DNA of 64,000 bases from Streptomyces sp. 1-11. GTDB lineage: Bacteria; Actinomycetota; Actinomycetes; Streptomycetales; Streptomycetaceae. The stretch is taken from contig NZ_BJTV01000016.1 in NCBI RefSeq assembly GCF_007176755.1, positions 62,001-126,000 of the forward strand, given 5' to 3'. The translations under genes and the position numbers were made by a program. How positions within the stretch are numbered: the first letter of the stretch is position 1; every line of letters starts with the position of its first letter. The notes below the pieces were generated by a model. It was given only the letters and a program-made list of their open reading frames with translations, did not search any database and had not been told where the DNA came from. This document shows, in pieces, positions 11,912 through 57,736 of the stretch.

Positions 11912-12070
11912 GAGTGACCTCTTCTCGGTACGGGTCCGTGCGTGTCACCACACGCGAACGATCGGCGGGGCCCCGATTCCGTAACACGAGGAAAACCTGA
12001 ACCGGGTCCGGCAGGGGAACAATCCAGCCAGCATCCGCGCACCTTTGATCAGGCGACGAGGAGTACGACC

Positions 12071-13522
12071 ATGTCCCAGACGCAGAAGGCGGAACAACGG
12101 CCCGGTGCCGCACCGCCCGCGGGCAACGGCGTCGACCGGTACTTCAGAATCTCCGAACGGGGATCCACTTTCGGCCGGGAGATACGCGGCGGCTTCGCCA
12201 CCTTCTTCACCATGGCCTACATCCTCGTGCTGAACCCCATCATCCTGGGCAGCGCCGAGGACAAGTTCGGCCACACTCTCGACACCGGCCAACTCGTCAC
12301 CGCCACCGCGCTGGTGGCCTGCGTGATGACGGTGGTCATGGGCGTCGGGGGCAACCTGCCGCTCGCCATCGCCGCGGGTCTCGGCCTCAACGCCGTCGTC
12401 GCCTTCCAGCTGGCCCCGCTGATGAGCTGGGCGGACGCGATGGGCCTCGTCGTCCTCGAAGGCGCCGTCATCTGCCTGCTGGTGCTCACCGGACTCCGCG
12501 AAGCGATCATGAACGCGATCCCGCAGCAGCTCAAGCAGGCCATCGGGGTCGGCATCGGCCTGTTCATCGCCTTCATCGGCTTCGTGGACGCCGGGTTCGT
12601 CAGCCGCATCCCGGACGCCGCGCACAGCACCGTGCCCGTCCAGCTCGGCGCGGTCGGACGGCTGACCGGCTGGCCCGTGCTGGTTTTCTGCCTCGGCGTG
12701 CTGCTGACGATCGCCCTGCTCGCCCGCAAGGTGAAGGGCGCGATCCTCATCAGCATCGTCACCATGACGGTCGTCGCGATCGTCATCGACGCGGTCGCCG
12801 ACATCAAGAGCTGGGGCCTGACCACGCCGAAGGTGCCCGACAAGATCGTCGCCGCACCCGACTTCGGGCTCGTCGGTCACTTCAGCCTGTTCGGCGGCTT
12901 CGCCAAGGCCGGTGTGCTCACCGCCGTGCTGCTCGTCTTCACCCTCATCCTGTCCGACTTCTTCGACGCCATGGGCACCATCGTCGGCATCAGCGCCGAG
13001 GCCGGGCTGCTCGACGACCAGGGACAGGTGCCCGGCATCGGCCGGGTGCTGTTCATCGACGGCGCCGCGGCCGTCGCGGGCGGGATCGGATCCGCCTCCT
13101 CCAACACCGCCTACATCGAGTCAGCGGCCGGCGTCGGGGAGGGCGCCCGCACCGGCTTCGCCAACCTCGTCACCGGCGGCCTGTTCGGGCTGGCGCTCTT
13201 CCTCACCCCGCTGCTGACCATCGTCCCGCTGCAGGCCGCCGCACCCGCGCTGATCGCGGTGGGCTTCCTGATGATGACCCACGTCAAGCACATCGACTGG
13301 GACCGGTACGAGATCGCCATCCCGGCGTTCCTCACCATCGCCGCGATGCCGTTCACCTACTCCATCACCGACGGCATCGGCGCGGGCTTCCTGTCCTACG
13401 TGCTCATCAAGACGGTCCTGGGCAAGGCCAGGGAGGTCAACTGGCTGCTGTGGGGAGTCTCCGCGCTGTTCCTGGTGTACTTCGCGATCGACCCGGTGGA
13501 GCAGGTCCTGGGCGTCGGGTGA
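12071..13522 (+). CDS. NCS2-family purine/uracil permease
   Basis: A 483-residue membrane transporter with about 12-14 hydrophobic segments, of the guanine/hypoxanthine (AzgA/GhxP-like) branch of NCS2. Typical segments are GFATFFTMAYILVLNPIIL, AAGLGLNAVVAFQL and SASSNTAYIESAAGVGEGARTG, the last being the substrate-site region. ATG 12071 has CGAGGAG upstream; in-frame codons before it lack a good Shine-Dalgarno. The gene is divergent from the sigma factor. The exact base transported is not certain. Confidence 0.92.
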   Translation: MSQTQKAEQRPGAAPPAGNGVDRYFRISERGSTFGREIRGGFATFFTMAYILVLNPIILGSAEDKFGHTLDTGQLVTATALVACVMTVVMGVGGNLPLAIAAGLGLNAVVAFQLAPLMSWADAMGLVVLEGAVICLLVLTGLREAIMNAIPQQLKQAIGVGIGLFIAFIGFVDAGFVSRIPDAAHSTVPVQLGAVGRLTGWPVLVFCLGVLLTIALLARKVKGAILISIVTMTVVAIVIDAVADIKSWGLTTPKVPDKIVAAPDFGLVGHFSLFGGFAKAGVLTAVLLVFTLILSDFFDAMGTIVGISAEAGLLDDQGQVPGIGRVLFIDGAAAVAGGIGSASSNTAYIESAAGVGEGARTGFANLVTGGLFGLALFLTPLLTIVPLQAAAPALIAVGFLMMTHVKHIDWDRYEIAIPAFLTIAAMPFTYSITDGIGAGFLSYVLIKTVLGKAREVNWLLWGVSALFLVYFAIDPVEQVLGVG

Positions 13523-19634: not shown

Positions 19635-19732
19635 GAAACCGCAGGCCGGCGCGGACGTATAAGGAGCACTGGGAGAACCTGCGCGAAAACTGGCGATGGA
19701 CGGCGGGTTCGCCGGGCCGCACAGTGGACCCC

Positions 19733-20794
19733 ATGGAGACCACGGAGACGTTCGAGAGCCTCGTCCGCGCCGAGTTCGCCCCCAGGAGCAGCTACCTCAA
19801 CACCGCCGGAAACGGCCTGCTGCCCGCCCGTACCGTCACCGCCCTGCACGAGGCGGCTCTGCTGCGGGCCGAGGGCCGGCCGCTGCTGCCGCTGTACGAG
19901 GACGTCGAGGCCTGCCGGGCCGCCTACGCCCGGCTCGCCGGCGTTCCGGCCGGCCGTGTCGCGGCCGGCGCCTCGGTCGCCGCGCACACCGCCGTGATCG
20001 CAGCGTCGCTGCCCGCCGGCGCCGAAGTGCTCACCGCCGAGGACGACTTCACCTCGGTGCTGAATCCGTTCCACGTCCGCGGCGACCTCAAGGTGCGGTC
20101 GGTCCCGCTGGAGCGGATCGCCGAGTCCGTCCGCCCGGACACCGCGCTGGTCGCGCTCAGCGCCGTGCAGTCCGCCGACGGACGCGTGGCCGACCTGGCG
20201 GCCGTGCGCGAGGCCGCCCGCGAGCACGGCGCGCGCACCTACGTCGACTTCTCCCAGTCCGCCGGCTGGCTCCCCATGGACGCGGCCGCCTTCGACTTCA
20301 GCGCCACGGTCTCCTTCAAGTGGCTGCTCGGCCCGCACGGCGCGGCGTTCCTGGTGGTCCCGGAGGACCTCGGCGGGCTGAGCCCGGTGCTGGCGGGCTG
20401 GGTCGCGGGGGAGCGGCCGTGGGACAGCTGCTACGGACCGGTCCGGGAACTCGCCCACTCAGCGCGGCGGTTCGACCTCAGCCATGCCCTGTTCACGTAC
20501 GCGGGGCTGCGCCGCTCGCTGGAACTCGTCGAGGAGATCGGGCTGCCCGCCCTGCACGCGCACGCCGTGCGGCTCGCCGACCGGTTCCGGACCGGGCTCG
20601 CCGGCCTCGGCCACGAGCCGGTGCCCGCGCCCGGCTCCGCCATCGTCTCGGTGCCGGGACTCGGCCACCTCCAGCCCGGGCTGAGCGAGGCCGGTATCGA
20701 GGTGTCCGACCGGGCGGGCAATCTGCGCGCGGGTTTCCACCTCTACAACACCCCGGCGGACGTGGACCGGCTGCTGGACGCGCTGTCCCGCTGA
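19733..20794 (+). CDS. Class V aminotransferase-fold PLP enzyme
   Basis: A 353-residue pyridoxal-phosphate enzyme. SSYLNTAGNGLLPARTV forms the N-terminal substrate loop, YVDFSQSAGWLPMD holds the cofactor-binding Asp, and SFKWLLGPHGAAFL holds the Schiff-base Lys. ATG 19733 (METTETFESL) is chosen over upstream in-frame codons that encode unrelated sequence. Relatives include cysteine desulfurase/isopenicillin epimerase-like proteins with unassigned substrates. It is convergent with the ectoine operon, from which a perfect 14-base-pair hairpin separates it. Confidence 0.85.
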   Translation: METTETFESLVRAEFAPRSSYLNTAGNGLLPARTVTALHEAALLRAEGRPLLPLYEDVEACRAAYARLAGVPAGRVAAGASVAAHTAVIAASLPAGAEVLTAEDDFTSVLNPFHVRGDLKVRSVPLERIAESVRPDTALVALSAVQSADGRVADLAAVREAAREHGARTYVDFSQSAGWLPMDAAAFDFSATVSFKWLLGPHGAAFLVVPEDLGGLSPVLAGWVAGERPWDSCYGPVRELAHSARRFDLSHALFTYAGLRRSLELVEEIGLPALHAHAVRLADRFRTGLAGLGHEPVPAPGSAIVSVPGLGHLQPGLSEAGIEVSDRAGNLRAGFHLYNTPADVDRLLDALSR

Positions 20795-21912: not shown

Positions 21913-22317
21913 TCACACCTCCTCGGGCTCGGTGAGCAGCGGGTAGACGCCGTTCTCGTCGTGGTCCTCCCGTCCGGTCACGGGCGGGTTGAACACGCAG
22001 ATGCAGTGGAAGTCCTCCTTGACGCGCAGCGTGTGCCGCTCGTGCCCGTTCAGGAGGTACATGGTGCCGGGGGTGATGGTGTACACCTTCCCGGTCTCGC
22101 GGTCGGTGAGCTCGGCCTCGCCCCGGGTGCAGACGACGGCCTCGATGTGGTTGGCGTACCACATGTTCGTCTCGGTGCCCGCGTACAGGATGGTCTCGTG
22201 CACGGAGAAGCCGACCCGCTCCTTGGCGAGGACGATCCGCTTGCTCTCCCACGTGCCGGACGCGGACTTGATGTGCCGGTCGGTGCCTTCGAGGTCCTTG
22301 AACGATCGGACGATCAC
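21913..22317 (-). CDS. ectC: L-ectoine synthase EctC
   Basis: Cyclises N-gamma-acetyl-diaminobutyrate to ectoine; 134 residues with a cupin fold. [38 protein letters not shown], interrupted here only for description, is the family N-terminus. The metal-site residues lie in [15 protein letters not shown] and [12 protein letters not shown]. It is the third gene of the operon, five bases before ectD and about 66 bases after ectB. Confidence 0.97.
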
Positions 22318-22383: not shown

Positions 22384-23655
22384 TCAGACGGTCTCGCGGA
22401 CGGCGCGGGAGAGGACGCTGAGGCCCTCGTCCAGCTCGTCGGGGGTGATGGTGAGCGCCGGCAGCAGCTTGACGACCTCGCCCTCCGGGCCCGAGGTCTC
22501 GATGAGCAGCCCCAGCTCGAAGGCGCGCCGGGCGACCCGCGAGGCCCGGTCCTTGCCGTGGAACTCCAGGCCCCACACCAGGCCGCGGCCGCGGTACTCC
22601 TTCACGTCGGCGAGGTTCTCCTCGGTGATGGAGATCAGGGCCTGCTCGACCTGCTCGCCGCGGGTGCGGGTCTGCTTCTCCATGGCGGAGCCGTCGGTCC
22701 AGTAGGTCTCCAGGGCCGCGGTGGCGGTGACGAACGCGGGGTTGTTGCCGCGGAAGGTGCCGTTGTGCTCGCCCGGCTCCCAGACGTCCAGCTCGGGCTT
22801 GAACAGGCACAGCGACATCGGCAGGCCGTAACCGCTGATCGACTTCGACACGGTGACGATGTCGGGCGTGATCCCCGCCTCCTCGAAGGAGAAGAAGGCG
22901 CCCGTGCGGCCGCAGCCCATCTGGATGTCGTCGACGATGAGCAGCATGTCCTGGCGCTCGCACAGCTCGGCCAGCGCCCGCAGCCAGGCGGCGCGCGCGA
23001 CGTTGATGCCGCCCTCGCCCTGCACGGTCTCCACGATCACGGCGGCGGGCTTGTTGAGGCCGGACCCCTGGTCCTCGAGCAGCCGCTCGAACCACAGGAA
23101 GTCGGGGACCTGGCCGTCGAAGTAGTTGTCGAACGGCATGGGGGTGCCGTGCACCAGCGGGATGCCGGCGCCGGCCCGCTTGAAGGCGTTGCCGGTGACC
23201 GCGAGGGAGCCCAGCGACATGCCGTGGAAGGCGTTCGTGAACGACACGATCGCCTCCCGCCCCTTCACCTTGCGGGCGAGCTTCAGCGCCGACTCGACCG
23301 CGTTGGTGCCCGTCGGACCCGGGAACATGACCTTGTACGGCAGGTCGCGCGGGCGCAGCACCAGGTTCTCGAAGGTCTGCAGGAAGCTCCGCTTGGCCGT
23401 GGTCGACATGTCCAGGCCGTGGGTGACGCCGTCCCGGGACAGGTAGTCGATGAGCGCCCGTTTGAGCACCGGGTTGTTGTGCCCGTAGTTGAGCGAGCCG
23501 GCCCCGGCGAAGAAGTCGAGGTACGCGTGGCCGTCCTCGTCGTACATTCGGCTGCCCTGCGCACGGTCGAACACGGTGGGCCAGCCGCGGCAGTAGCTGC
23601 GCACCTCGGATTCGAGGGTTTCGAAGACGCTCAGGTCGGGCTGGGTGATCGTCAC
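22384..23655 (-). CDS. ectB: Diaminobutyrate-2-oxoglutarate transaminase EctB
   Basis: First step of ectoine synthesis: aspartate semialdehyde to L-2,4-diaminobutyrate, with glutamate as amino donor. It has 423 residues. Class III aminotransferase marks are FPGPTGTNAVESALKLAR (phosphate binding), LLIVDDIQMGCGRTG (Asp for the cofactor nitrogen) and VSKSISGYGLP (Schiff-base Lys). It starts 13 bases after the ectA stop and belongs to the same minus-strand operon. Confidence 0.97.
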   Translation of the reverse strand: MTITQPDLSVFETLESEVRSYCRGWPTVFDRAQGSRMYDEDGHAYLDFFAGAGSLNYGHNNPVLKRALIDYLSRDGVTHGLDMSTTAKRSFLQTFENLVLRPRDLPYKVMFPGPTGTNAVESALKLARKVKGREAIVSFTNAFHGMSLGSLAVTGNAFKRAGAGIPLVHGTPMPFDNYFDGQVPDFLWFERLLEDQGSGLNKPAAVIVETVQGEGGINVARAAWLRALAELCERQDMLLIVDDIQMGCGRTGAFFSFEEAGITPDIVTVSKSISGYGLPMSLCLFKPELDVWEPGEHNGTFRGNNPAFVTATAALETYWTDGSAMEKQTRTRGEQVEQALISITEENLADVKEYRGRGLVWGLEFHGKDRASRVARRAFELGLLIETSGPEGEVVKLLPALTITPDELDEGLSVLSRAVRETV

Positions 23656-23668
23656 GGTGGGTCGCTCC

Positions 23669-24187
23669 TCAGTGCGCGGTGGTGGGGGTGAGGGGGCCGA
23701 TGCGGTACAGGACTTCGGGGTCGTGCGGGCCGTCCGGGAACAGGCCGGCCGGGAACAGCACCTCGCGGGTCAGGTCCGCGCCGTGCCGTTCGGCGAAGGA
23801 GGTGAAGAGCCGCTCGGAGGCCGTGTTGCCCGGGGTGATGGTGGTCTCGATGCCGGTGATCCCGCGCTCGTCGGCGAGCCGGGCGGTCAGCCCGTCCAGC
23901 AGTGCGGCGGCGATGCCGTAGCCGCGGTGGGCGGAGTCCACGGCCACCTGCCACACGAGCAGGGTGCGGGGGTCGTCGGGCCGCACGTACCCGGTGACGA
24001 AACCGACGGGCTCGCCGTCCGCGCCGCGGGCCACCGCCGAGGTGGCCGCGAAGTCCCGGCACCACAGCAGATAGCTGTACGAGGAGTTCAGGTCGAGGGT
24101 TTTCGATTCCTTGGCGAGCCGCCAGAGCGAGGCTCCGTCGGTCACCGCCGGTCGGTCTATCAGCAGGTCTGCTGGTGCGGCAGTCAT
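23669..24187 (-). CDS. ectA: Diaminobutyrate acetyltransferase EctA
   Basis: Acetylates L-2,4-diaminobutyrate to N-gamma-acetyl-diaminobutyrate; 172 residues, GNAT fold. Family marks are LDLNSSYSYLLWCRDF near the N-terminus, VWQVAVDSAHRGYGIAAALL as the acetyl-CoA loop, and ETTITPGNTASERLFTSFA. It is the first gene of ectABCD. The 311-base AT-richer upstream region holds the promoter, a palindrome and a GlnR-type box, consistent with osmotic and nitrogen control. Confidence 0.96.
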   Translation of the reverse strand: MTAAPADLLIDRPAVTDGASLWRLAKESKTLDLNSSYSYLLWCRDFAATSAVARGADGEPVGFVTGYVRPDDPRTLLVWQVAVDSAHRGYGIAAALLDGLTARLADERGITGIETTITPGNTASERLFTSFAERHGADLTREVLFPAGLFPDGPHDPEVLYRIGPLTPTTAH

Positions 24188-24268
24188 GCGGATGGAATTT
24201 AGCGAGACAAATTGAAGAATGCACGGGCGGCATCGACGGCACTCACGACCACGCCGATGAAATGTCGG

Positions 24269-24286
24269 GTTTGACCTACATCAAAC
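24269..24286. promoter_or_regulatory. Palindrome GTTTGA-N6-TCAAAC in the ect promoter region
   Basis: Perfect six-base arms, 82 bases upstream of the ectA ATG and within the AT-rich stretch where the promoter should lie. It is a candidate operator. No regulator gene is adjacent. Confidence 0.45.
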
Positions 24287-24315
24287 TATGACAAAGAGTC
24301 TCGCCTGTGGAGTGT

Positions 24316-24331
24316 GTCACATACATGAAAC
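24316..24331. promoter_or_regulatory. GlnR-type box upstream of ectABCD
   Basis: GTCAC-ATACAT-GAAAC matches the GTnAC-N6-GnAAC pattern of the nitrogen regulator GlnR exactly. It lies about 129 bases before the ectA start. GlnR repression of ectABCD has been reported in S. coelicolor, so the site is plausibly functional here. Confidence 0.6.
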
Positions 24332-24451
24332 ACGCCGGAAAACCCACCCGTTTAGCCATGTGAAAAGCGGGCAGAAGAAGACGGGAAGCTATCGGCGGAC
24401 GAATTCGCGGAATTTGTGAAACTAATTTGAATTTCCACTCCGGCAATGAAA

Positions 24452-24478
24452 ACGGCCCGCACGGTGCGTGCGGGCCGT
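24452..24478 (-). terminator. Intrinsic terminator for the minus-strand aminotransferase
   Basis: ACGGCCCGCAC pairs perfectly with GTGCGGGCCGT over a five-base loop. On the minus strand it is followed by TTTTC, giving a real U-run, which is uncommon in this genome. Confidence 0.85.
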
Positions 24479-24498
24479 CGTTTCGCGGACTTCTGCCG

Positions 24499-25599
24499 TC
24501 ACCGCCAGGCGTCGTCCGCCGCCCGGCGTGCCGCCGCCACGTCCACCGTCAGCCCCTGCGCGGCGAGCGCCCCGCCCAGGGCCGCCAGGCAGGCGTGCAC
24601 GGCGTCCCGCGTGGCATCCGGCCCGTAGTGGTTCACCCGGATCATCTCCTTGGCCAGGGCGCCGCCGCCGGCGGCCAGCGGCAGCCCCGGCTCGCTCCCC
24701 AGCGCGTGCGCCACCAGCTCCGACGCCACCGTGCCGGAGGGCGCCCGCAGGGTGGTGGCGACCGGCGCCGCGTCCCCGGCCTCGTGCACGTACGGCTCCA
24801 GGCCGCCCCCCAGCGCCGCGGCGCCCGCCCGGGCGGCCCGCGCTGCGCCGGCGTGCCGCGCCATCACCGCGTCGAGGCCCGCGGACTCGATCCGCTCCAG
24901 GCACGCCTCCAGCGCGAGCATCTCCAGCTGGGCGGGAGCGTGCAGCAGCGCCTTGCGGCCGCCGTCGATCCAGCGCTCCTTCCAGTCCAGCAGGGAGAGG
25001 TAGGAGCGGCGCGGGGCGTTCGGGTTGGCCGCCATGCGCGCCCACGCCCGCTCGCTCACCGAGATCGCCGACACCCCGGCCGGCCCGCCCATCGCCTTCT
25101 GCGCCCCGATCACGCACAGGTCGACGCCCCAGGCGTCCGGCAGCACCGGCTCCGCGCCGACCGAGGCGACCGCGTCCAGGTAGAACAGCGCGCCCTGCTC
25201 CCGCACCGCCTCGCCGATCTCCGCGACCGGGTTGGTGTTGCCCGTCGCCGCCTCGGCGTGCACCAGCGACACGAAGTCGATCTCCGGGTGCTCGGCGAAC
25301 GCCTCCCGGACCGCGGAGGCCGTCACCGCCGTGTGGAAGGGCACCGCGAGGTCGTGCACCGTGGCCCCGCAGTCCCGCAGCCAGTCCCCGAAGGTCTGCC
25401 CGTACGGACCCGTGATCACGTTGAGCGCCGTCGTGCCGGGGCCGGCCGCCGCGCGGATCGCGCCCTCCAGCGGCAGGAGCGCCTCGCCCTGGGTGATCAC
25501 CACGTCCTGGCGGGTGTCCAGCAGCCGGGCCACCCGGTCCTCGATGGCGGCGAACCGTTCGGCGCTCAGCGGGGGCAGATCGAGGAGGGGGTGGGTCAC
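24499..25599 (-). CDS. Class V aminotransferase (alanine-glyoxylate/serine-pyruvate type)
   Basis: A 366-residue PLP enzyme. ALNVITGPYGQTFGDWL, SLVHAEAATGNTNPVAEIG (substrate loop), LFYLDAVASVGAEPVLPDAWGVD (cofactor Asp) and VIGAQKAMGGPAGVS (Schiff-base Lys in AQKAMGGP) follow the alanine-glyoxylate aminotransferase pattern. GTG 25599 gives the usual THPLLDLPPLS N-terminus; GTG 25620 is an alternative. It is divergent from the amino-acid ABC transporter, so a role in amino-acid use is likely. The amino donor is not known. Confidence 0.87.
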   Translation of the reverse strand: MTHPLLDLPPLSAERFAAIEDRVARLLDTRQDVVITQGEALLPLEGAIRAAAGPGTTALNVITGPYGQTFGDWLRDCGATVHDLAVPFHTAVTASAVREAFAEHPEIDFVSLVHAEAATGNTNPVAEIGEAVREQGALFYLDAVASVGAEPVLPDAWGVDLCVIGAQKAMGGPAGVSAISVSERAWARMAANPNAPRRSYLSLLDWKERWIDGGRKALLHAPAQLEMLALEACLERIESAGLDAVMARHAGAARAARAGAAALGGGLEPYVHEAGDAAPVATTLRAPSGTVASELVAHALGSEPGLPLAAGGGALAKEMIRVNHYGPDATRDAVHACLAALGGALAAQGLTVDVAAARRAADDAWR

Positions 25600-25733
25600 G
25601 GCGCTGCTCTCTTCGCTCACGAGGGTCCACGAGGCCGGCCGAAGGCCGACGGAAACGAGGGTAACGCCCGCCCTCCACCCCCTCGCGACCGGCGACTTCT
25701 CAGGCCGGAACGCCCCTCGGTCATCGGTTTGAT

Positions 25734-56805: not shown

Positions 56806-56932
56806 CTCCGGGCGGCCATCGGCTTCGATGGTGGCCACCCGGCCAGCAGTCTGAACGGCCGGGTGGTTACTGTGCAGTCACTTAGCATGCCGTACGGCAA
56901 TGTGTGATGACCGCACCCATCGGAGGCGCCCC

Positions 56933-57736
56933 ATGGCTTCGCCCGACCAGGACCTCGCTCCTGTACTCGACAAGGACGGCGTACGGCTCACCGTCGACGA
57001 CGCGCTCGCCACGGTGACGCTGGCCAACCCGGCCAAGCGCAACGCGCAGAGCCCCGCCATGTGGCGGGCGCTCACCGAGGCCGGCCGGCTGCTGCCGGGC
57101 TCCGTCCGCGTCGTGGTGCTGCGGGGCGAGGGCCAGTCCTTCTCCGCCGGGCTGGACCGCATGATGTTCACCCCGGACGGTATCCCGGGCGAGCCGACCT
57201 TCATCGAACTCGCGCGTCGTGACGACGCCGGGCTCGACGCGACCATCGCCGAATACCAGGAGGCGTTCACCTGGTGGCGGCGCAACGACATCGTGTCCGT
57301 CGCCGCCGTACAGGGGCATGCGATCGGTGCCGGGTTCCAGCTCGCGCTCGCCTGCGATCTGCGGGTCGTCGCGGACGACGTGCAGTTCGCCATGCGCGAG
57401 ACCTCGCTCGGCCTCGTTCCCGACCTGACCGGCACGCATCCGCTGGTCGGGCTGGTCGGGTACGCCCGCGCGCTGGAGATCTGCGCGACGGGCAGGTTCG
57501 TCGGAGCCGACGAGGCGGTGGCCTCCGGGCTGGCCAACCTCGCGGTGCCCGCGGCCGAACTCGACGGCGCGGCCCGGGACCTGGCCGCGGCGTTGCTGGC
57601 CGCTCCGCGCGACGCGGTCGTGGAGACCAAGGCGCTGCTGCGGGGCGCCCCGGAACGGGACTACGACACCCAGCGGGCCGCCGAACGGGCCGCCCAGGCC
57701 CGGCGACTGCGGGACCTGGCCGGCATCGGAGAGTAA
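56933..57736 (+). CDS. Enoyl-CoA hydratase/isomerase family protein
   Basis: Crotonase-fold protein of 267 residues. LANPAKRNAQSPAMWRAL is the CoA-adenine side, GEGQSFSAGLDRMMF forms the first oxyanion-hole peptide and VQGHAIGAGFQLALACDLRV the second. The general-acid position is FAMRETSLGLVPDLTGTHPL. ATG 56933 follows CGGAGG. Acyl substrate unknown. Confidence 0.9.
   Translation: MASPDQDLAPVLDKDGVRLTVDDALATVTLANPAKRNAQSPAMWRALTEAGRLLPGSVRVVVLRGEGQSFSAGLDRMMFTPDGIPGEPTFIELARRDDAGLDATIAEYQEAFTWWRRNDIVSVAAVQGHAIGAGFQLALACDLRVVADDVQFAMRETSLGLVPDLTGTHPLVGLVGYARALEICATGRFVGADEAVASGLANLAVPAAELDGAARDLAAALLAAPRDAVVETKALLRGAPERDYDTQRAAERAAQARRLRDLAGIGE

Follow-up and report, generated by a model that had tools for sequence, protein, structure and literature searches.

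The ectoine genes ectABCD have been connected with several regulators in Streptomyces and elsewhere. According to the excerpts available of the papers cited here, GlnR inhibits ectABCD in S. coelicolor, an effect for which there is confirmation from A. mediterranei and from S. avermitilis (Shao et al. 2015, as summarised in the review PMC10704036). Chromatin immunoprecipitation (ChIP) found MtrA strongly enriched at the ectABCD promoter of both S. venezuelae and S. coelicolor (PMC13189361, PMC5845573), with no other MtrA ChIP target of S. venezuelae more highly enriched than ectABCD (PMC5845573). Sucrose-induced ectoine in S. venezuelae needs MtrA, the published evidence on MtrA comprising proteomics as well as ChIP (PMC13189361, PMC5845573); the earlier MtrA paper had guessed that MtrA represses ectABCD in S. 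coelicolor (PMC5845573). MtrA also recognises GlnR boxes (PMC6988585), and its sites are described as imperfect direct repeats with a spacer of 5-6 bp, with TTGCCCA and TGCCCGT as half-sites by SPR and a consensus invariant only at T1 and C4 (PMC13189361). In S. avermitilis a Rex operator, TTGTGATCGACTCCACAT, was predicted 155 nt before ectA and an ectABC probe was shifted by Rex, the site having 3 mismatches to the consensus and belonging to the less tightly bound class (PMC5355995); no in vivo effect of Rex on ect was seen in the excerpts available of the literature on Rex at ectABCD. ArgR shifted the corresponding region of S. coelicolor, where a weak box, ATTCGTAACCCCATCCGGCG (Ri 3.8 bits), lies 38 nt before the SCO1864 start codon (PMC5839063), and ect has been reported to be SigB-dependent (PMC11472566). 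The osmotic switch-on of the ectoine genes has nonetheless been described in a review as far from understood.

We analysed a Streptomyces window, by which we mean the whole stretch of 64,000 nucleotides, that carries ectABCD on its minus strand. The first gene, ectA (L-2,4-diaminobutyrate acetyltransferase; 23669..24187, ATG at 24187), was recognised from its open reading frame and a GNAT family match, ectB (22384-23655) and ectC (21913-22317) from the Pfam families Aminotran_3 and Ectoine_synth, and the open reading frame from 21020 to about 21910 is, judging by its sequence, presumably ectD. A terminator-like hairpin on the minus strand (24451..24479; fold of 24440-24500 at -33.1 kcal/mol, z -4.1) lies 3' of the upstream minus-strand gene and is the boundary of the ectA regulatory region. 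Class-V aminotransferase genes lie on both sides of ectABCD (19688-20794 and 24499-25716; Pfam). No regulator was recognised by a Pfam scan of five proteins flanking ectABCD. Elsewhere the genome encodes MtrA (NF040689, 396.6 bits against a cut-off of 300) and a Rex-type protein (PF06971 match at C1:907062-907205).

The original prediction had pointed to two elements about 30 bases apart upstream of ectA, a perfect GTnAC-N6-GnAAC site and a GTTTGA-N6-TCAAAC palindrome, and both are present exactly as it described them, at 24316-24331 and 24269-24286, with 29 bases between them. The former is the direct repeat GTCAC-N6-GAAAC (GTCACATACATGAAAC; 24316..24331, plus strand), which reads GTTTC-N6-GTGAC on the coding strand and is of the GlnR/MtrA type. 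Its two half-sites, at 11-bp spacing, show 0 mismatches to the GlnR consensus gTnAc-n6-GaAAc (PMC10704036). It fits the MtrA site G/T-T-G/A-A-C-C-N5-G-T-G/T-A-C-N loosely, that consensus being highly degenerate and its half-site too loose for assigning bases. As bare matches within the window both elements are weak: perfect GTNAC-N6-GNAAC occurs twice against 0.88 expected, with 21 of 100 shuffles reaching two, and GTTTGA-N6-TCAAAC is unique, with one site against 0.29 expected at up to 2 mismatches.

Other ectA promoters were compared. The set consisted of 199 distinct Streptomyces ectA upstream regions, 214 having been reduced to this number by discarding regions whose last 360 nt matched letter for letter; it contained 80 named loci picked for the closeness of their EctA to that of the window and, from genus genomes, 30 loci, 80 regions chosen among the matches listed and 25 further loci, while L031 and L101 were left out as too short. 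An ectA match at E<=0.001 was found in 196 of 199 genus genomes, some of these matches being weak and possibly other GNATs. Motifs were counted, unanchored, from 60 to 300 nt before the predicted start with dinucleotide shuffles as control, and 178 promoters were aligned on TGTGA-N7-CACA as an anchored set. Of the 199 regions, 6 gave no anchor in the typing and 3 lacked a match to the core promoter. Self-written patterns for the block adjoining the core promoter set three promoter types: B (140/199), A (44/199, the window included) and C (12/199). Type-wise counts use the anchored rows and the anchor is mostly the palindrome described below, so that palindrome counts by type are not independent; more generally, the ectA promoters share descent and all counts overstate the independent evidence.

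On the coding strand GTTNC-N6-GTGAC was found in 128 of the 199 regions against a shuffled mean of 0.1, and the box is therefore above chance. Spacing was rigid, with GTT[AT]C exactly 11 bp upstream of GTGAC in 119/178 anchored promoters and in none at the 11 other offsets tested. The strict tandem was missing from 71 of the 199 regions. The tie to nitrogen supply through GlnR that had been proposed thus stands in part: the conserved box and the published inhibition by GlnR speak for it, but GlnR alone is too narrow an owner in view of MtrA and of a Rex-like palindrome at the same place. The likeness to the described GlnR-ectABCD system lies in a GlnR-type box upstream of ectA, where GlnR represses ect (PMC10704036); the difference is that in the window a palindrome of higher conservation shares bases with the box, which may just as well belong to MtrA.

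This palindrome, TGTGA-N6-CCACA (TGTGACACACTCCACA; 24306..24321, minus strand), was not mentioned in the original prediction. Its general form [TC]GTGA-N6-NCACA was present in 190 of the 199 regions (shuffled mean 0.1); palindrome and tandem occurred together in 126, the palindrome only in 64, the tandem only in 2 and neither in 7. Six bases, TGTGAC at 24316-24321, are common to both elements, and the box is the less conserved half of the resulting composite. Outside Streptomyces the palindrome was found in 3 of 20 ectA promoters (shuffled 0.03) and the strict tandem in none of those 3, which favours an old, separate element. Genome-wide, the composite GTTNC-N6-GTGAC-N6-CACA had a match in 75 of 121 genomes against 9 for the reversed control; comparison by eye with the ectA coordinates, which placed part of the matches, put them upstream of ectA or scattered.

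The palindrome resembles the predicted S. avermitilis Rex operator, TGTGA-N6-CCACA standing before ectA at 155 nt there and at 134 here; the window site has one more mismatch, and the excerpts available mention neither an overlap with a GlnR/MtrA site nor conservation across the genus (operator from PMC5355995). Compared with the Rex consensus TTGTGAANNNNTTCACAA, which has T at position 10 (PMC5355995), it shows 4 mismatches, with CCACA in place of the second half of the Rex core TGTGA-N6-TCACA. Position 10 is T in 151/178 anchored promoters, which fits Rex, and position 11, T in good Rex sites, is C or A in 176/178 and T in 1. Because of the 4 mismatches and the rarity of T at position 11 we class the palindrome as Rex-operator-like and not as a Rex operator. 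The whole S. avermitilis operator was not found in the 199-region set, and its inner 16 letters are unchanged in one region (L116). In the genome of the window, Rex-like sites at up to 2 mismatches numbered 13 against 2 for a control pattern; five of the 13 are letter-identical to S. avermitilis Rex operators, including one, TTGTGCACGCGTTCACAA, that lies 122 bp from the PF06971 match.

Crp-type sites have the form TGTGA-N6-TCACA, with GTG-N6-GNCAC, G at position 10, as the Streptomyces Crp consensus. The palindrome shares this general form, and a Crp/Fnr-type site in place of a Rex site would account for its shape. We consider this unlikely: where the Streptomyces Crp consensus wants G, at position 10, G occurs in 1 of the 178 promoters and the prevailing base is the T wanted by the Rex consensus, and Rex itself shifted the ect promoter in S. 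avermitilis. Position 10 thus speaks against Crp as owner of the palindrome.

Taking the composite together with the separate array of half-sites described below, we favour, with some confidence, a multi-signal reading: these elements belong to one region through which several inputs control the ectABCD promoter, itself probably leaderless. An OmpR-family regulator would read the direct repeat, MtrA under osmotic stress and GlnR under nitrogen limitation, and the redox sensor Rex would read the overlapping palindrome; since the direct repeat and the palindrome share TGTGAC, the OmpR-family regulator and Rex should exclude one another. A further regulator presumably reads the separate array. 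Ectoine synthesis, which draws on glutamate, would thus be set jointly by the osmotic, nitrogen and redox state. The present analysis itself shows sequence, conservation, spacing, overlap and differences between clades, and work on other species has shown for GlnR, MtrA and Rex separately that they act at or bind the ectABCD promoter; that they use exactly these bases in this genome, and compete there, we infer. If the multi-signal reading is true, osmotic signals through MtrA, nitrogen signals through GlnR and redox signals through Rex would compete for the same few bases of a compact site, and it would be understandable that different studies of one ect promoter came upon different regulators. 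A site shared by Rex and GlnR or MtrA at ect was not found in the excerpts available of the literature searched.

Ten bases genewards of the Rex-like palindrome begins a 35-bp array of TTTGYCC-like half-sites (24261..24295, minus strand). In the window it comprises h1 (24289-24295) and h2 (24279-24285), followed by two half-sites in inverted orientation, h3' (24270-24276) and h4' (24261-24267); counted by eye, h1 and h3' have 6 of the 7 letters of TTTGYCC and h2 and h4' have 4. The GTTTGA-N6-TCAAAC palindrome (GTTTGACCTACATCAAAC; 24269..24286) is the inner pair of this array, h2 with h3'. In the 7.85-Mb genome its exact copy occurs at 24269-24286 only, with one more site at 1 mismatch, and among the 199 regions it occurs in one, that of the window. 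As a conserved operator the exact palindrome was therefore rejected; conservation across ect promoters holds for the box and not, letter for letter, for this palindrome. What is conserved at its position is the half-sites, and the statement that the second motif has no known owner stands. Defining a half-site as at least 5 of the 7 letters of TTTGYCC and measuring from the T of TGTGA, type A (n=43) had forward half-sites at 26 (79%) and 36 (60%) and inverted ones at 45 (65%) and 54 (47%), type B (n=136) a forward one at 26 (82%) and inverted ones at 43 (79%) and 53 (38%), and type C (n=12) forward ones at 26 and 35 (92% each) and inverted ones at 43 (67%) and 53 (83%). No second forward half-site (h2) was found at 20% or more in type B (n=136). 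The order is thus ++-- in types A and C and +-- in type B.

Inverted repeats scoring 7 or more lay over the array in 42/178 promoters against 3.0 in shuffles preserving single-base composition only; of three control stretches, +62 to +104 gave 21/178 against 5.0, an excess that perhaps comes from the CGCG-rich run before GATAACACA, and the two others gave 4 against 2.3 and 1 against 1.3. These counts bear on the framing of the locus as a GlnR box accompanied by an unrelated chance palindrome. In its favour are the published inhibition of ectABCD by GlnR (PMC10704036), the occurrence of the exact palindrome in a single region, and type-A arms that in the register of this palindrome covary no more than shuffled ones (3.63 against 3.57). 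The type-A box also has a more GlnR-like half: its upstream half-repeat is GTTTC (GAAAC) in 23/43 type-A against 3/136 type-B promoters, whereas GTTAC prevails in type B (91/136). The palindrome nevertheless sits on half-sites at fixed positions, with the inverted-repeat excess just given, and activation by MtrA is documented (PMC13189361), so that we give this framing little credence.

Another way to read the array would be as an RNA or DNA hairpin, an attenuator or a cruciform, and not as a protein operator. Some loci do have strong dyads, for example 11-bp arms in L066, and for a small number of arm pairs covariation exceeds that of shuffled sequence (type B, 29-46 with z 4.1; type A, 29-57 with z 4.7; outermost sum in type A 4.14 against 3.61). 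Over all arm pairs, however, there is little covariation: 6.35 against 6.05 in type B, 5.33 against 5.35 in the outer register of type A, and the value already given in its inner register, which is that of GTTTGA-N6-TCAAAC; protein half-sites therefore fit better than a hairpin. Moreover, the array lies upstream of the promoter placed beside the ATG and would thus not be transcribed from it. The hairpin or cruciform reading was accordingly rejected, a few pairs apart, and we hold it to be very improbable; the array would rather be a protein operator.

Whether this operator would need a new protein is a separate matter, as MtrA alone could be responsible for everything seen. The direct repeat, the CCACA half of the palindrome and the array would then be clustered MtrA half-sites, and the binding of Rex and GlnR in vitro would be side effects. 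The top rank of ectABCD among MtrA ChIP targets in S. venezuelae, the need for MtrA in sucrose-induced ectoine and the resemblance of the SPR half-sites TTGCCCA and TGCCCGT to the array arms TTTGCCC all suit this view. A consensus fixed only at T1 and C4 makes such resemblance cheap, though, and the inverted half-sites of the array do not agree with MtrA sites described as direct repeats, nor do the 64 of 199 regions that have the palindrome without a strict direct repeat. We regard control by MtrA alone as possible but doubtful, and return to the array as the target of a further protein.

Of 150 genomes, 6 contained an exact TTTGCCC-N10-GGGCAAA, in all six upstream of ectA, and 3 its reversed control. 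Six of six matches at ectA is not chance; the absence of the motif elsewhere is weak evidence of exclusivity, a few chance matches being expected. In a search for co-targets, the array pattern TTTGYCCNNNTTTGNNNNNRGGNCA at up to 1 mismatch had four matches in 15 genomes, one at ectA in G247, two of identical sequence in G020 and in G111 and a single one in G016. No co-target of the array emerged, but the search says little on this point, since in the remaining 14 genomes, that of the window included, the ectA array itself escaped the pattern. The identical pair is an array-like TTTGCCCGTCTTTGGTGCGCGGCCA away from ectA (G020:C40:91906-91930 and G111:C3:358171-358195). CosR is a MarR-type repressor of ect genes. 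A dedicated ect operator, as the TTTGYCC array would be, is likewise known for the MarR-type EctR; EctR overlaps the -10 region in a methylotroph, and among the five flanking proteins of the window no regulator was recognised (EctR from excerpts of PMC5924519). We tentatively propose that a regulator yet to be discovered, dedicated to ectABCD, uses the TTTGYCC-based array as its operator and is a Streptomyces counterpart of EctR/CosR beside the MtrA/GlnR/Rex site, in a clade whose promoter has been rewired by loss of the GGTAA-type -10 and of the proximal GATAACACA...GTAACCCC block; as a whole this proposal may well prove wrong. The array would point at one further ect-linked binding protein.

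The -10 hexamer TAAATT (within CGCTAAATT; 24196..24201, minus strand, -9 to -14) lies 8 nt before the ATG. Its form TA[AG][AG]TT precedes ATG[AC]C in 196 of the 199 regions; the spacer measures exactly 8 nt in all but 2 of these 196, where it is 7 nt. A likely -35, GTGCAT (24219..24224, minus strand, -32 to -37), precedes it with a 17-bp spacer; its role is presumed, and its position is conserved, as GTGCATTT in 27/43 type-A and as ATGCAATT in 91/136 type-B promoters. Because the 8-nt spacing of the -10 is rigid and no ribosome-binding site (no GGAG) was found before the ectA ATG in the window, transcription of ectA probably starts at or very near the ATG and yields a leaderless mRNA. About a fifth of transcripts in S. 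lividans and S. coelicolor are leaderless (PMC6742748); a start site for ectA was not found in the excerpts available of that paper, which covers S. lividans transcripts. On a scale with the A of the start codon at +1, the array extends from -74 to -108, the Rex-like palindrome from -119 to -134 and the tandem from -129 to -144. Between GTTTGA-N6-TCAAAC itself and the likely -35 downstream of it there are 44 bp, a position that is activating or looping rather than occluding, and the suggestion that it sits where a repressor would act found no support.

SigB-type promoters follow the consensus GNNT-N14-16-GGGTAC/T. The window has CGCTAA and lacks the SigB-type GGGTA at its -10, a difference that belongs to its promoter type: GGGTAA or CGGTAA occurs in 131/136 type-B and 12/12 type-C promoters, and CGCTAA in 37/43 of type A. 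In type B, GATA[AG]CA[CT]A was found in 128/136 anchored rows, in most cases with an AACCC-like element after it, and the distance from the box to the -10 was 156-158 in 119/136. In type A the same block was found in 0/43, an absence that is partly definitional, and the distance was 120 or 121 in 37/43, the few rows at 130-158 being probably mistyped; in type C it was 129 or 130. The -10 distance and the -10 letters are the differences that do not depend on how the types were defined. On a quick ectA tree the type labels require 6 changes, shuffled labels 51.6; the window falls within a well-supported set of 32 type-A rows.

Most of the promoters examined have a GGTAA-type -10 and the GATAACACA...GTAACCCC block; the clade of the window has neither. 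From the ingroup promoters we infer that the SigB-like -10 and the proximal element were lost in this clade, so that the distal composite would remain as its chief input among those known. In this it differs from the MtrAB-ectABCD system, to which it is otherwise alike in having an osmotic response regulator at the same promoter and GTnAC-type repeats (PMC13189361, PMC5845573); the excerpts available of these papers give no exact MtrA site at ectA. The ArgR box at SCO1864 lies in the same intergenic region as the elements of the window (PMC5839063) but on the CGTAACCCC block, which the window does not have. Results from model species may consequently not transfer to this clade, which is a prediction of the comparison.

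Some further observations were made along the way. One locus of the set (L122, in genome G118) carries the 20-base ArgR box of SCO1864 letter for letter, together with the GATAACACA block, and G118 is therefore probably S. coelicolor or a near relative. The type-C loci (L025, L026, L032, L038, L058, L061, L062, L074, L097, L099, L100 and L197) have a CGTGA-N6-GCACA-like palindrome, the strict GlnR/MtrA tandem in 1/12, and a block resembling GCATCACGGAATCACCACGGCC instead of GATAACACA...GTAACCCC. The second perfect GTNAC-N6-GNAAC match of the window, GTGACTGCACAGTAAC (56866-56881), lies 18 bases before an open reading frame (56900-57736) that by eye we take to resemble an enoyl-CoA hydratase. 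Finally, three GlnR/MtrA-like sites with one mismatch each are clustered at 11933-11948 (minus strand), 11944-11959 (plus) and 11981-11996 (plus), before a permease-like open reading frame (11942-13522, whose ATG is likely near 12071) and opposite another one; by eye the former is presumably a nucleobase permease and the latter is ECF-sigma-like, and the cluster may link nucleobase uptake to nitrogen.
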